Of a stretch of 64,000 nucleotides of DNA, positions 29,301 through 38,531 are shown piece after piece (positions within the stretch are counted from its first letter, which is position 1; the number at the start of each line of letters is the position of its first letter). Origin of the DNA: Bdellovibrionales bacterium (lineage in GTDB: Bacteria; Bdellovibrionota; UBA1018; CAIMNF01); the NCBI GenBank assembly GCA_947502835.1, contig CANNBJ010000006.1:62001-126000 (forward strand). Reading direction: 5' to 3'. Under the pieces are notes generated by a model. It did not search any database, was not told the DNA's origin, and saw only the letters and a program-made list of their open reading frames with translations. The translations under genes and the position numbers were made by a program.

Positions 29301-30704
29301 TCATGCGGCTTTTCGTTGACTGAGCCACTGAATCAGTTTTGATGCAATCTCGCCCAGGGGCAAAATCTCTCCTGCTGCGCCCAGGCAAATCGCCTCTCGC
29401 GGCATGCCGAAGACCGCACAGCTGGCTTCATCTTGAGCAATGGTCCGGGCACCTGCTGTTTTCAACTTGAGCAGACCCTTGGCGCCATCACCCCCCATTC
29501 CCGTAAGGATGACGCCGATGCAATTCCCGCCGCAAGCAGCAACAACAGAATCGAAAAGGTAATCCACTGACGGCTTGTGCCGGTTTACCGGAGGGGAATC
29601 GTCGATTGAAATGAACATCCTCCCGTCATTTCTCTTGCGGATCTGCATTTGTCGCCCCCCGGGAGCGATGTACACATTTCCAGGAAGCACCTCGGCACCG
29701 TGAACCGCCTCCGAAACCCCAAAGGGACAAAGGGAATTCATCCGGTCGGCAAATGCCTTCGAGAAGACGGCGGGAATATGCTGTGTGATCACAATCGGGG
29801 GGATCATCGCCGGAAGTTCGGTAAGGACTTTCCGAAGCGCCTCGGTTCCACCCGTGGAGGATCCGATCGCAATCAAACATTTCGGGTCAAGTGCTCCGTG
29901 CGACATCACGGGATTCTTTCTCGGAACCCCGCCCGCCACGCCCAAAGGTCCGCTTTTTGCTGTGGTGGCGAGTTTCGCAGTGGCCGCTCCCTTGATTTTT
30001 TCCACAATCACCGGGGCCGCATCCTCAAGTTCAGACGCACTCGGCTTTTGCACATAATCAACCGCCCCTGCCTCAAGGGCCTGAAGCACACGACTTCCCT
30101 CTTCCATGCCGATGGAAGTGATCATCACCGTGGGAACAGGATGATGGGGCAGGTATTGCTTGAGAAAGGCAAGCCCGTCCACCTCAGGCATTTCTAGATC
30201 CAGAGTGATCACGTCCGGCTTCAGCTTTTGAATCATCGGAAGCGCGGTAGAAGGCCGATCCGCAGCTCCGACCACCTCGAGCTGGGGATCATCCCCCATG
30301 ATTTTCGCCAAAAGATTCCGGATGGTCTTGGAATCATCGACGATCAAAACCTTGATCTTCTTTGCGACGTGGATTTTTCCCTCCTTCGGGAAAAAGCGCA
30401 CTTCAAACGTGCCCTCCCGGATCGCAGTGTTGATGACACGGTACCGTTTCGAGGCCAAATATTCCGTTATTTTCTGGATCAATTTGGAGGAACCTACCAT
30501 CTTGAACCCTGCGGGAATCCCCACCGCACCCTTCAGGATTTCAAAGCCGGTCTCCAAATCCCCCTCGTGAAACCAGCGCGAGCTGACCCAAACAGCCGCG
30601 GATTCCTTGATGCCTTGCGCGACCCAGAACACACCGTCGAACAGGATGATCTTGTCCTGATCGGGGTGACTCGCGGAAAACAGGGTGAGATGTTTGAAGC
30701 CCAT
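29301..30704 (-). CDS. cheB: Chemotaxis methylesterase CheB with an extra N-terminal domain
   Basis: The product is 467 residues, about 110 longer than usual. Residues 117-235 are a receiver domain with Asp169 in VITLDLEMPEVDG. Residues 275-460 are the methylesterase with the intact triad Ser283 (GSSTGG), His309 (ITQHIPA) and Asp406 (TGMGGDG). It removes methyl groups from chemoreceptors when phosphorylated by CheA. The first 115 residues are extra; the part from VGSSKLIQKITEYL to VRFFPKEGKIHV recalls the end of CheD, but no CheD catalytic Cys-His pair is present. It starts 3 bp after the CheR-fusion gene. Confidence 0.92.
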   Translation of the reverse strand: MGFKHLTLFSASHPDQDKIILFDGVFWVAQGIKESAAVWVSSRWFHEGDLETGFEILKGAVGIPAGFKMVGSSKLIQKITEYLASKRYRVINTAIREGTFEVRFFPKEGKIHVAKKIKVLIVDDSKTIRNLLAKIMGDDPQLEVVGAADRPSTALPMIQKLKPDVITLDLEMPEVDGLAFLKQYLPHHPVPTVMITSIGMEEGSRVLQALEAGAVDYVQKPSASELEDAAPVIVEKIKGAATAKLATTAKSGPLGVAGGVPRKNPVMSHGALDPKCLIAIGSSTGGTEALRKVLTELPAMIPPIVITQHIPAVFSKAFADRMNSLCPFGVSEAVHGAEVLPGNVYIAPGGRQMQIRKRNDGRMFISIDDSPPVNRHKPSVDYLFDSVVAACGGNCIGVILTGMGGDGAKGLLKLKTAGARTIAQDEASCAVFGMPREAICLGAAGEILPLGEIASKLIQWLSQRKAA

Positions 30705-30707
30705 GTC

Positions 30708-32552
30708 CTAGTTCTTTCCGAAAAACTCGGTTCCCATGAATGCAAAACTGGTATAGGGAAAGACATCCGTCGCATACAACTGGAGACTCTCCGTACCCTT
30801 GCCCTCGCCCAGATCCTCCAGCAACAACTGCCCGAAATGCCAGGTCTTCAAAAGCTGGGAGGCTGATCGACCCAGTTCGCCCAAGACCCCGACCCCGACC
30901 CGGTCCGATCCGTGCAGGGATGGCAGAACGGCAAGAGCCTTGTGATAGTCGAGAACCCAAATCTCGCCCGGTTTCGCTTTGGCAACAACCGAATCCGGTG
31001 CCGATACCGCACGGCCCGACATCTTGCTCAATTGGGCGGCGATTGCGGGAAGATTCCCCTCGACCCCCTCGAACAGCAGGTACACCGGAGGTTGAACCCC
31101 CTCAAGTTCCTTCAAAAAAGAGGCAGTTTTCCTCATCTGCCCCATTCCCGTGACGAGGACCCTGGCCTTCGACTCGGGATTTGCGATCTCTAGTTTTTTC
31201 TTGAATTGGGAATCCAGATCCACCGGCTTGCTGCCGCCGGCACGCTTGAGAAGGATTGCGGACTTCAGCTTTGCCCGGATCTCCTCGCCCCTCTCCTGGA
31301 GTTTGTTCAGCGCCGGCTTCTCGATAAAGTCGGATGCTCCGAGCTCAAGAGTCCTCATCGCAAGATCCGATTGGTCCCGTGAAACCGAACTCACCATGAC
31401 AACGGGAGGATGATGAAGGGAGAAATTCTTCTCCAGATACTCCACCCCGTTTTGCTCGGGCATGTGAATGTCCAGAGTGACCACATCAACATTCTCGAGC
31501 TTCTTCAGCTTTTCCGCAGCATCGATTCCGTTCACAGCGCTTCCCGCGATTTCAAAACCGTGCTCGCTTTTCAGGATCTGTTTCATCAAGGAATGAACAC
31601 TCGGTGAATCATCAATACAGAAAACCCGGATCGCACGCGTTCCGCTTTCCGGCACCTGAATGCCTTCCCGGATGGGAATCACAGGGGTTTTCTGAGCCTC
31701 TTTCTCGCGGGCCCGGTAAATGGAAGGACCCTCGCTCTTCAAATCGAACCCAAGGCCATTCAGGGTCTCGGAAATCCCGATGAAAAAGTATCCCTGCGGC
31801 TCAAGATGCCTGAGAAGCATGGCCGTGCTCGTCCGGATCTGCTCCGGGGTGAAGTAAATGAAAACATTCCTGCAAAAGATAATGTCGAATTTCTGCCCCT
31901 CGAAACGATCCTTGAAATCGAGCAGGTTTGCCTGCTCGAATCTCACCGCATCCCTGATGGAACCCTTTGCCTTCACGAACTCGGCGATGTCACCCGTCCC
32001 GCGCGCCCAATGGTTTCCGAGATACGCAAGAGGGACTTCACGGATTTCCCGTCGCGGATACACGCCGTTTCGAGCGATCCTGATGGACTGTTCATCGACA
32101 TCGGTCCCGAGGATCCGGAACTTCAAATCGGCTCCGTAACTCTGCAGGTGATATTTCAGATACATGGCAAGGGAGTACACTTCCTGCCCCCGCGAGGCTG
32201 CTGCAGACCACACATTCAGGGTTTTGTCGGCGCGCTTCCGGATTTCCGGCACCAGGGCGGGGAGCGCCTTCTCGGACAGGAACTCGAAATGACTGAACTC
32301 GCGGAAGAAGTACGTATAGTGCGTGGTCAGCAGGGAGACAATGTGCTGAATCTCGGCCTTTTCATTGCCCTCGTAATACACTTGATAGTCATCGAGGGTC
32401 CGGTAGCCCAGATCCTGCACCCGTTTCGTCAATCGGGTCTGGACCATCGACCGCTGCTTGTCGCCAAGCTGAACTCCTGTCATCTTGGTGACCTCAAGTG
32501 CGAGGTGCTCACAAAGATCGGGGTATTTGAGTTTTCTGACCGCTGTGCTCAT
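30708..32552 (-). CDS. cheR: CheR methyltransferase fused to a receiver and a degenerate CheB-like domain
   Basis: The product is 614 residues. Residues 1-285 are CheR: TTHYTYFFRE, NVWSAAASRGQEVYSLAM for SAM binding, RILGTDVDEQSI and FDIIFCRNVFIYF. Residues 308-430 are a receiver with Asp361 in VVTLDIHMPEQNG and a lysine in FIEKPAL. Residues 463-585 can be aligned by eye to the CheB methylesterase, but the three catalytic positions read Gly471, Glu495 and Arg562 instead of Ser, His and Asp. The last 25 residues are unassigned. It methylates chemoreceptor glutamates; the dead domain may bind receptors or regulate CheB. Confidence 0.9.
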   Translation of the reverse strand: MSTAVRKLKYPDLCEHLALEVTKMTGVQLGDKQRSMVQTRLTKRVQDLGYRTLDDYQVYYEGNEKAEIQHIVSLLTTHYTYFFREFSHFEFLSEKALPALVPEIRKRADKTLNVWSAAASRGQEVYSLAMYLKYHLQSYGADLKFRILGTDVDEQSIRIARNGVYPRREIREVPLAYLGNHWARGTGDIAEFVKAKGSIRDAVRFEQANLLDFKDRFEGQKFDIIFCRNVFIYFTPEQIRTSTAMLLRHLEPQGYFFIGISETLNGLGFDLKSEGPSIYRAREKEAQKTPVIPIREGIQVPESGTRAIRVFCIDDSPSVHSLMKQILKSEHGFEIAGSAVNGIDAAEKLKKLENVDVVTLDIHMPEQNGVEYLEKNFSLHHPPVVMVSSVSRDQSDLAMRTLELGASDFIEKPALNKLQERGEEIRAKLKSAILLKRAGGSKPVDLDSQFKKKLEIANPESKARVLVTGMGQMRKTASFLKELEGVQPPVYLLFEGVEGNLPAIAAQLSKMSGRAVSAPDSVVAKAKPGEIWVLDYHKALAVLPSLHGSDRVGVGVLGELGRSASQLLKTWHFGQLLLEDLGEGKGTESLQLYATDVFPYTSFAFMGTEFFGKN

Positions 32553-32560
32553 GTGATTTC

Positions 32561-33058
32561 CTATGCTGCGGATTTGTTCCCTGATTGTTGGTTTCTTTGG
32601 ATGGCGCTTTGATCCTCGAGATTCAGGCTTTTGGCAATGTCGAGAAACAAAATCAGCTTGTTTTCCTTGCGATACACACCCGTGATGAAATCAGTCGCCC
32701 GGGACGACTGGATGTCGGGCTTGGGGGCGATCTCGCCCGCATCGGGACTCAGAACCGTATTCACCGAATCCACCACCACCCCGATCGAGACGCCGCCGAG
32801 ATCACAGATGATGACCGTGGTCTCCTCGCTTTTTACGGCTTTCACACCGAGTTTCTGGCGCATATCCATGACCGAAATCACCTGACCCCGCAGATTCATG
32901 ATTCCAAGAAAGTACGGCGGTGTGTAAGGCACGGGTGTGTACTCGGGCATCGCAATCACTTCTCTCACCGCGAGCAGCGGAACCGCATACTCCTCCGATC
33001 CCAGGGAAAAACTCAGGAACCTCTCGCGTCCGTTCATTGATGCCTTGCTCTCGCCCAT
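32561..33058 (-). CDS. cheW: Chemotaxis coupling protein CheW
   Basis: The product is 165 residues. The CheW SH3-like double barrel is clear: FSLGSEEYAVPLLAVREVI, PPYFLGIMNLRGQVISVMDM and IGVVVDSVNTVL. It links chemoreceptors to CheA. AGGAG lies 9 bases before the ATG at 33058, inside the end of cheA; an internal ATG at 33037 is an alternative. The cheA stop overlaps the region just before the start, as expected for a tight operon. Confidence 0.95.
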   Translation of the reverse strand: MGESKASMNGRERFLSFSLGSEEYAVPLLAVREVIAMPEYTPVPYTPPYFLGIMNLRGQVISVMDMRQKLGVKAVKSEETTVIICDLGGVSIGVVVDSVNTVLSPDAGEIAPKPDIQSSRATDFITGVYRKENKLILFLDIAKSLNLEDQSAIQRNQQSGNKSAA

Positions 33059-33059
33059 A

Positions 33060-34973
33060 TCAAGCCACTCCTCTGCCTTCCGGCTTTACCAATTCGTTCA
33101 TCTCCAGGATGATTGCGGGTTTTCCATCTCCGAGGATCGCGCTTCCGCTCATCCAGCGAAGGGCCCGGATCTCGGGTCCCACTTCCTTGATCACCACCTG
33201 CTGTTGCCCCAGGATGTCATCCACCATGACCGCGAATGGCTGGGAAGAATACCGGATCACCATCGCAATCTGCTCGCGCGCAACCGTCTCTGCAGCTCTC
33301 CTTTGACCCAAAAGCCCGCTCAACCGGAACAGCGGAAGATTCTCGCCTCTCAGCATGAGCATCTCTCCCATGCCCGTGGACGAGTGGATGTCTCCCGCAG
33401 TAGGTCGAAGGGTTTCGTGGACATGGGAAAGAGGGACCACAAATCGACTCGACCCGTTTTTCACGACCATGCCATCGATGATCGCGAGAGTGAGAGGGAG
33501 AAACACCTTGAAGGTTGTACCCGCTCCGAGTTCGGTCTCGACGAGAACCTCTCCCTGCAGAGCCTCAATGTTGGTTTTTACAACATCCATTCCAACACCC
33601 CGCCCGGAAACTTCCGTCACCTGTGCTTTGGTGGAGAATCCCGGGTGGAAGATCAGGTGGATCTGTTCCTGGTGCGTAAGCTTCGCGTCGGGTTTCAGGA
33701 TTCCCTTCTCGATCGCTTTTTTCATCAGGCGATCCCCGTCGATTCCCCCGCCATCATCCTTCACTTCGATCACAAGCTTCCCGCTTTGGTGATAGGCGTT
33801 CAGCATCACGTTCCCGGTTTCGCTTTTTCCCGCCTTGACCCGTTCTTCCGGACGTTCGATTCCATGATCGCACGCGTTTCGAATCAGGTGAACCAGTGGA
33901 TCACTGATGTTCTCGAGGACCGTTTTGTCCAATTCCGTGTCGTCGCCCGTGGTGTTCAGACTCACGCGCTTATCGAGCATGTTGGATGTGTCCCGGACGA
34001 TTCTTTGCATCTTTTGAAAGGTCTGGCGGAGAGGCACCATCCTGAGACTCATCGAGATGTCCTGCACCTCTTTTGTGACCTTCCCCATTTGATGAATGGT
34101 CTTCCTGAGCAGATGGGACCCTCCGCTCAAGGATTGCTCACGAAGCACGGTTTGGAGAATCACAAGTTCCCCGACCGAGTTGATGAGCTTTTCAAGCCTC
34201 CCAAGGGAAACCCTGATGGATTCTTCCTGGGCCGTGGCGTTCGCACTGGACTTGCGCGTTTCTTTTGGCTTCAATTCCAAGACCGGAGCCGGCATTGCAA
34301 GGACCACAGGGACAATGGGCTCGGGTTCCGGAATGACCAGATTTTCTTCTTCCTTTGTCACTTCGAGAACCGGATTCGGGAGATCATCGAGGGAATCGTT
34401 CACAAGCTTCAGAAGCTCGAGTTCCTCTTTGCTCGGAGGGGGTTCGCCCTCAAACCCGCCTTGAAATCCAGCGGGCAGGGAGTCCGCAAAGGGGGGATCG
34501 GAAAGGGCGGCATCGAAGGCTTCCTCGGAGAATGCCTCCGGAGCAGGAACAACCGGCACTTCGGGCACGACATTTGCACTCACTGCCTGGCCCGCGATCC
34601 TTGAATCAAGCTTCGAGAGCAACTCGGAGCTGTCTGTTCTTGCCTCAAGATCCTGCTTCAGCGCATCCACCATGTTCCTGACATGGTCATTGCAAACCAA
34701 GAGGAGATTGATGACCTCCGAGTCCACGGCAGTCTCGCCATTCTTCAATTTCAAAAGGAAGCTTTCCCAGCGATGGGTGAATACGCCGATGTCGTCGAAT
34801 CCGACCGCTTTGGAACTCCCCTTCAAGTTGTGTGCAATTCGAAAGATTTTATCGAGGGTGGGCCCGTCTCCCGGATTGGATTCCAAGACAAGAAAGCACT
34901 GCTCTGCATCGCTCAAAAGTTGGCTTGCTTCTTCGAGAAATCCGGCTTTTAACTCCCGCTCGAAATCATCCAT
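33060..34973 (-). CDS. cheA: Chemotaxis histidine kinase CheA
   Basis: The product is 637 residues. The HPt domain carries His48 in IFRIAHNLKGSSKAVG. Residues 120-250 form a proline/acid-rich linker in place of a recognisable P2 CheY-binding domain. Dimerisation helices begin at SIRVSLGRLEKLINSVGELV. The ATPase domain has HLIRNACDHGIE, DDGGGID and GRGVGMDVV, and a CheW-like regulatory domain is C-terminal. It phosphorylates CheY and CheB according to receptor state. GAGG precedes the ATG, and a sigma-28-like element lies upstream at 34992-35019. Confidence 0.96.
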   Translation of the reverse strand: MDDFERELKAGFLEEASQLLSDAEQCFLVLESNPGDGPTLDKIFRIAHNLKGSSKAVGFDDIGVFTHRWESFLLKLKNGETAVDSEVINLLLVCNDHVRNMVDALKQDLEARTDSSELLSKLDSRIAGQAVSANVVPEVPVVPAPEAFSEEAFDAALSDPPFADSLPAGFQGGFEGEPPPSKEELELLKLVNDSLDDLPNPVLEVTKEEENLVIPEPEPIVPVVLAMPAPVLELKPKETRKSSANATAQEESIRVSLGRLEKLINSVGELVILQTVLREQSLSGGSHLLRKTIHQMGKVTKEVQDISMSLRMVPLRQTFQKMQRIVRDTSNMLDKRVSLNTTGDDTELDKTVLENISDPLVHLIRNACDHGIERPEERVKAGKSETGNVMLNAYHQSGKLVIEVKDDGGGIDGDRLMKKAIEKGILKPDAKLTHQEQIHLIFHPGFSTKAQVTEVSGRGVGMDVVKTNIEALQGEVLVETELGAGTTFKVFLPLTLAIIDGMVVKNGSSRFVVPLSHVHETLRPTAGDIHSSTGMGEMLMLRGENLPLFRLSGLLGQRRAAETVAREQIAMVIRYSSQPFAVMVDDILGQQQVVIKEVGPEIRALRWMSGSAILGDGKPAIILEMNELVKPEGRGVA

Positions 34974-37889: not shown

Positions 37890-38387
37890 TCAGCTCCTGC
37901 GCGCCTTCTTTTTTGATGTTTTTTTCGGGGCGGACTTCTTGGCAACTTTCTTGGATGCCTTCTTCGTCGTCTTCTTTTTTGTCGCCTTCTTTTTTGCCTT
38001 GGACTTTCTTCCAACGCCCTTCCCTGCATCCCCGGAATTCAACCCTTGAATCAATTTGTTCAAGTGACCGAGCATCTTACGCTTGTGTACGGGATCCACG
38101 GCCACGAGCTCCGCTCCCACTTGAAACAGGCCATTCGGAAGATGTTTCACCCAAGCAACACACACGAGGAGTTTCAAGGCCTCTTCGGCAAAAAGAACCT
38201 CGAGCAGAATCAACGCGCCTTTTTGGTATTCCCGGGCGGTCTCAAACGAAATCCCATTGCTGGAAAGATCCACCGAGGAGTTTTCCTCGAATACCGGGGT
38301 GCCGAGCACCTGGTAAAAAGAGTGCTTGATGCGGCTTTTCACGGGAACCCGAAGACGTTTTCTGCGATCAGAAGCTTTTTGTGCCAT
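37890..38387 (-). CDS. PilZ-domain protein with lysine-rich histone-H1-like tail
   Basis: The product is 165 residues from the ATG at 38387. An N-terminal PilZ domain (about 8-110) shows RRKRLRVPVKSRI, matching the RxxxR c-di-GMP motif, and SVDLSSNGISFET, matching D/NxSxxG. The C-terminal roughly 35 residues are almost entirely Lys, Ala, Thr and Ser with repeating KKxTKK and KKASKK units, as in bacterial histone-H1-like proteins. It probably binds c-di-GMP, and the tail could bind nucleic acid or another polyanion. It is divergent from the cheY-like gene. Confidence 0.85.
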   Translation of the reverse strand: MAQKASDRRKRLRVPVKSRIKHSFYQVLGTPVFEENSSVDLSSNGISFETAREYQKGALILLEVLFAEEALKLLVCVAWVKHLPNGLFQVGAELVAVDPVHKRKMLGHLNKLIQGLNSGDAGKGVGRKSKAKKKATKKKTTKKASKKVAKKSAPKKTSKKKARRS

Positions 38388-38531
38388 AGTATGATTTTGA
38401 CAAAACACACAGCGAAATGCGATGGCATTGTTTTGACGTGTCGGGCGCTAAAACATCGTGATCAGGATCAAATGTGGATACAAATTTCCCTCTTTCCCGT
38501 ACACTGGAATTCCAAAGGAGCACACGAAACC

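Follow-up and report, generated by a model that had tools for sequence, protein, structure and literature searches.

In the textbook design of sensory adaptation CheR has a fixed rate and kinase feedback acts on CheB alone, and robust-adaptation theory has been built on this pairing of a constant CheR with a feedback-regulated CheB; in enteric bacteria CheR is constitutive. The receiver of CheB covers the active site as long as it is unphosphorylated; phosphorylation uncovers that site and also forms one to which the tether binds (PMC8609364). Tethers of the NWETF type have the consensus xWxxF, a C-terminal pentapeptide whose second residue is Trp and whose fifth is Phe, and the Salmonella CheR structure 1bc5 contains bound NWETF (PMC7390727).

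The protein considered here joins CheR to a receiver (REC) and to a dead CheB catalytic domain (psiCheB). Canonical CheB (1a2o, 1chd, 3sft and 6ymz) likewise has a receiver and then the CheB catalytic fold, with equal order and linker position, whereas psiCheB lacks the catalytic triad and the NRHxPSVD segment, is fused C-terminally to CheR and is somewhat shorter. The nearest known parallel is Treponema CheW-CheRlike, in which a dead adaptation-enzyme domain is also retained in the chemotaxis array, in a non-catalytic role, but there the dead domain is CheR, its partner is CheW, and there is no receiver (PMC7666581). FrzF and other CheR-TPR proteins carry CheR with an additional domain, and the TPR of FrzF restrains methylation; the TPR, however, stands in place of REC-psiCheB, and a phosphorylation site is absent (PMC3447774). 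Receiver-less CheB-CheR fusions, such as those at loci L089 and L030 of the genomes compared, are similar in placing both adaptation enzymes on a single chain, but no dead domain was recognised and no receiver detected in them, and the domain order of L089 differs. The open-access literature, to which the search was confined (subscription literature lay outside it), yielded no account of CheR joined to a receiver and a dead CheB, or of CheD joined to CheB, and novelty is thus provisional.

The gene cluster and its CheR fusion

The cluster lies on the minus strand of the window (the whole 64,000-nucleotide stretch of Bdellovibrionales DNA that was analysed), as do all window features given below, and its genes run cheA-cheW-[cheR-REC-psiCheB]-[psiCheD-REC-cheB], where psiCheD denotes a degenerate CheD. 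The CheA histidine kinase (33060..34973; Pfam Hpt, H-kinase_dim, HATPase_c and CheW) is the presumed phosphodonor to both receivers. It is followed by CheW (32561..33058; Pfam CheW, 1.7e-35) and by the ORF of the 614-residue CheR fusion (30708-32552). Scans for promoters and terminators gave no signal above shuffles. The cluster has no receptor gene of its own and, by Pfam, no CheY gene. Because the genome contains the flagellar motor gene fliG, chemotaxis is a plausible output. Elsewhere in the window (37890-38408) is a PilZ-domain protein whose C-terminal tail is long and rich in Lys and Ala (KKKATKKKTTKKASKK...). The same genome has a second chemosensory cluster (L081, G000:C1:280000-298000), which encodes a 992-residue CheA with a C-terminal receiver, CheW, a receptor, an ordinary CheB, a CheY-like protein and a stand-alone CheR.

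Residues 1-285 of the fusion (31698..32552) form a SAM-binding CheR methyltransferase domain (Pfam PF01739, 5e-47) that aligns with Salmonella CheR 1bc5 at 2.5e-34, with the FFRE, CRNVxIYF and RGTG motifs matched and catalytic R84 and Y233 present. The RGTG of its β-subdomain loop (residues 184-187) aligns without a gap to that of 1bc5, and is thus of the Salmonella pentapeptide-binding type; in the fusion family the loop is kept as WxRGTGxIxxFVK. The receiver (residues 308-432, 31257..31631; Pfam Response_reg PF00072, 4.4e-19) has all of its phosphorylation residues: the acidic pair D314/D315, the phospho-acceptor D361, S388 and K412.

The third domain, psiCheB (residues 436-614, 30711..31247), was recognised by AlphaFold, Foldseek, hhalign and a table of its residues. 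Neither Pfam nor NCBIfam gives a match beyond residue ~440, and phmmer with residues 436-614 finds no relative in the PDB; single-sequence searches are blind to a CheB relation that profiles and structure detect. This silence, and a structurally aligned identity to CheB of only ~10%, would suit an unrelated Rossmann-like domain with a chance likeness to CheB, a reading that is most improbable and largely refuted by the other comparisons. Structure prediction had been set beforehand as the test that could refute the CheB relation, and it returned the CheB fold and no unrelated one. The AlphaFold model, built from an alignment of 30 relatives, has pLDDT 87.3 and pTM 0.84, and a Foldseek search of 350,542 PDB chains places CheB structures (1chd, 3sft, 6ymz and 1a2o) in all of the best eight positions (E from 7.2e-8 for 1chd, the best, to 1e-3; TM 0.61-0.68 on the query). 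There is then a clear gap to the ninth match, which is another fold with TM down to 0.39. Between psiCheB and CheB of the next gene the hhalign match is of modest strength (probability 52, P 1.4e-4) yet strictly colinear; run against CheR, receivers and CheD as controls, this profile stays below 1% each time. The family profile also matches ordinary CheBs at E ~1e-4 (G026, G165) and, among 177,635 entries, ranks Salmonella 1chd second, though with an E of only 0.26. The domain sits after REC exactly where the CheB catalytic domain does.

The catalytic triad is lost. At its positions the window protein has G469 (or G471) for Ser, E495 for His and R562 for Asp; among 30 relatives, Ser occurs at 469 in 4, His in 3 and Asp in none, with no two together in any protein. 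The NRHxPSVD segment of CheB is absent from 43 of 43 psiCheB proteins. Ser in some relatives (at 469 in the four just counted, at 471 in 10/30) was considered as a sign of activity and rejected, the Ser469 proteins being without His or Asp. Judged by these residues, psiCheB is a CheB relative almost certainly unable to hydrolyse, and hydrolysis of receptor glutamyl methyl esters by it is predicted to be absent; because the triad is lacking, it is not placed in the CheB enzyme family. An earlier note had described CheR, a receiver open to phosphorylation and a dead domain of CheB fold in a single polypeptide, and Pfam, the residues and AlphaFold/Foldseek all agree with it. Its G471, E495 and R562 are also as the residue table has them; Gly471 is indeed Gly, but the profile alignment puts the equivalent of the catalytic Ser two residues away, at G469. 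The CheB relation claimed for residues 463-585 likewise stands, although the domain extends to the C-terminus at 614, and its most conserved stretch, the P-x-T-S-F motif (residues 599-603, 30744..30758), had been overlooked. This motif is kept in 43/45 family proteins, eroded ones included, and near-invariant residues of the domain are R464, E579, P599, T601, S602 and F603.

Extra receivers acting as phosphate sinks are known from other chemotaxis systems, and REC-psiCheB might drain phosphate from CheA, with psiCheB stabilising the receiver and CheR fused for localisation. The intact receiver and the missing cheY of the cluster would both fit, but a sink requires neither the conserved P-x-T-S-F of the third domain nor a strict fusion to CheR, and we regard it as unlikely.

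The adjoining psiCheD-REC-CheB gene

Three base pairs separate the stop of the CheR fusion from the start of the next gene (TAG-GAC-ATG). The earlier claim of an apparently active CheB at this spacing is upheld by the intact triad (GSSTGG at 281, QHIP at 308 and GMGGDG at 402), but the product is not a plain CheB, since a degenerate CheD forms its N-terminus. After psiCheD (residues 1-115, 30360..30704) come a receiver (29985..30359; Pfam Response_reg, 7.5e-22) and a CheB methylesterase catalytic domain (29304..29912; Pfam CheB_methylest, 9.3e-63), which carries the segment NRHKPSVD. By hhalign, psiCheD matches true CheD with probability 95 and P 2.9e-8, colinear over 125 columns and the whole domain; the catalytic Cys (LGSC) of CheD is aligned to Gly, and the position of its His (NH) falls in a gap. 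The AlphaFold model is confident (pLDDT 93.9, pTM 0.87). Its Foldseek matches are weak, the best being NTAN1, CNF1 and YfiH, which we take to be structural relatives of CheD, and there is no CheD among the 50 matches listed; the identity of psiCheD thus rests on the profile match. Real CheD-REC-CheB fusions occur within the same order (L031, L034 and L035), and in the window genome no CheD exceeds the family cut-off. As its residues are read, then, the locus encodes two adaptation enzymes, each with an intact receiver and a predicted dead adaptation-enzyme domain.

In nearly all loci with a long enough contig the next gene adjoins the CheR fusion, at spacings of -34 to +15 bp. At L046 (1692-5012) a single ORF of 1107 residues encodes CheR-REC-psiCheB-psiCheD-REC-CheB, and at L123 (4278-7814) a single ORF of 1179 residues has the same domain series, with a weak psiCheD part. 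These one-chain forms are strong evidence that both proteins work together.

Distribution, descent and constraint

The CheR-REC-psiCheB architecture was found in 27/40 genomes sampled from genus up to order, and the psiCheB domain in 79/291 Bdellovibrionota genomes, four of which are cross-matches to other CheBs, leaving about 75/291. Close relatives are metagenome assemblies, labelled Bdellovibrionota for the most part. The search for the architecture in related genomes that the earlier note had proposed, with inspection of the triad, thus finds it recurring across the phylum with the triad lost. In a tree of CheR the domains of the fusion family form one clade (support 99), and in a tree of receivers those of the psi fusion do so as well (99/94); CheR-REC-psiCheB is of single origin in Bdellovibrionota. 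Origin of REC-psiCheB as a duplicate of the neighbouring CheB was rejected, the receiver tree keeping psi receivers outside the neighbour's clade.

A separate cluster of related Bdellovibrionota (L028, L075-L078, L132 and L133) has CheR-REC-CheB with an intact triad. These proteins share the domain order of the psi fusion, and their CheR is the sister clade of its CheR, with moderate support (86); they differ in a CheB that is active by its residues, in a CheR β-subdomain loop of GSGKTxGL and in receptors of their cluster, whose C-terminus is a version of DDDSFKK[IV]A. The intact form is probably ancestral, and the simplest reading is that the ancestor was a CheR-REC-CheB fusion and that its CheB died a single time, early on. 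At one locus, L076 (G004:C4:26000-45000), a few kb separate two chemosensory clusters; the active CheR-REC-CheB belongs to one and the dead form to the other, and each has receptor tails of its own type. At L134 (4082-5641; G264), the CheB of a CheD-REC-CheB fusion is without the Ser and His motifs and keeps GFGADG; it is possibly a second, independent dead CheB.

The active CheR-REC-CheB of the sister clusters, and members of the family at L124-L127 in which psiCheB is eroded to ~150 residues, could be taken to mean that psiCheB is a decaying leftover of the ancestral fusion, functionless now. This is very unlikely given its conservation across many families, the near-invariant residues named above and its rate of change: dN of psiCheB is 0.10 between the window and L002 and 0.13 between the window and L003, against 0.09 for the active CheB domain in each pair (0.09-0.11 over the closest genomes), which places it under constraint. 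Ratios of dN to dS are rough, with synonymous sites saturated.

In the eroded proteins the C-terminal P-x-T-S-F is still there, and outlasting erosion is what would be expected of a docking element. Together with genes that adjoin across the order and make one polypeptide at L046 and L123, this speaks for psiCheB as mainly a scaffold, pairing with the active CheB or psiCheD of the next gene in a hetero-complex that would bring methyltransferase and methylesterase together on one receptor, with phosphorylation secondary; Treponema CheW-CheRlike, whose dead CheR-like domain is required for array order (PMC7666581), is a precedent. The retention of all receiver phosphorylation residues would be left unexplained, and such a scaffold, though possible, seems doubtful.

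A feature earlier overlooked is the tail of receptors encoded beside psi-fusion clusters, which in ~25 genomes or records reads, with minor variation, ~P[SA][ED][DN]DPRF[EK][DE][IV] (overall DPRF[EKQT][DE][IVL]). Genes for such receptors are found at L141 (G000:C5), L008-L025, L043, L045, L076, L085-L088, L120-L139 and L171-L180. The window genome has one, L141, ending ...EDPRFTEL, on a contig separate from the window cluster. No DPRF tail occurs in the readable receptors of nine fusion-free genomes (19 loci, three of them unreadable). The β-subdomain loop of CheR is cluster-specific too: WxRGTGxIxxFVK in the psi fusion versus GSGKTxGL in the active one. The DPRF[EK][DE][IV] tails have no Trp and hence do not follow the xWxxF of NWETF-type tethers; from its sequence the DPRF tail may be a new kind of putative tether.

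A proposed switch on CheR

The reading we favour, at a probability of roughly 45%, is that the receiver and dead CheB constitute a switch, controlled by CheA, through which CheR is regulated and docked. REC-psiCheB would have lost hydrolysis and retained the conformational switch of CheB, with a closed state in which unphosphorylated REC is packed on psiCheB. Phosphorylation by CheA would open the pair, alter the reach of the attached CheR to the receptor and, as in genuine CheB, uncover a surface for receptor binding, so that the feedback from CheA that acts on CheB would govern CheR too. CheR-REC-psiCheB and psiCheD-REC-CheB are probably paired at the receptor, where the cluster-specific tail DPRF[EK][DE][IV] would recruit them. 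The phosphorylation-controlled docking or competition that the earlier note proposed fits, we infer, the domain anatomy; that account was incomplete in being without psiCheD, the one-chain forms, the receptor tail and the paralogues in which the CheB of CheR-REC-CheB is active.

The switch is favoured by a CheB fold that has lost its triad beside intact receiver and CheR catalytic residues; by a conserved fusion that falls in single clades, with dN of psiCheB near that of active CheB; and by a next gene that adjoins or is fused, the intact-triad paralogues and the genome-specific receptor tail. Counted against it are the ~150-residue psiCheB of L124-L127, where a full CheB-like closed interface is not needed, and the want of a receptor gene in the window cluster, with the matching tail on another contig; the moderate support for the CheR sister group also counts against this best explanation. 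A broader version, in which CheA would switch both methylation and demethylation through paired receivers and enzymes regulated by dead domains, on a non-NWETF tail and as a phylum-level variant, is tentative and somewhat doubtful.

Bdellovibrionota is a phylum of predatory bacteria, and the arrangement suggests that in it both halves of sensory adaptation are under the same kinase. A receiver-controlled CheR, if true, would be a different feedback design from that of the textbook. The two proteins are a clear example of dead enzymes retained as regulatory parts, and the receptor tail is a possible new tether in Bdellovibrionota. The architecture is conserved across the phylum, and the proposed mechanism is plausible and open to direct test.
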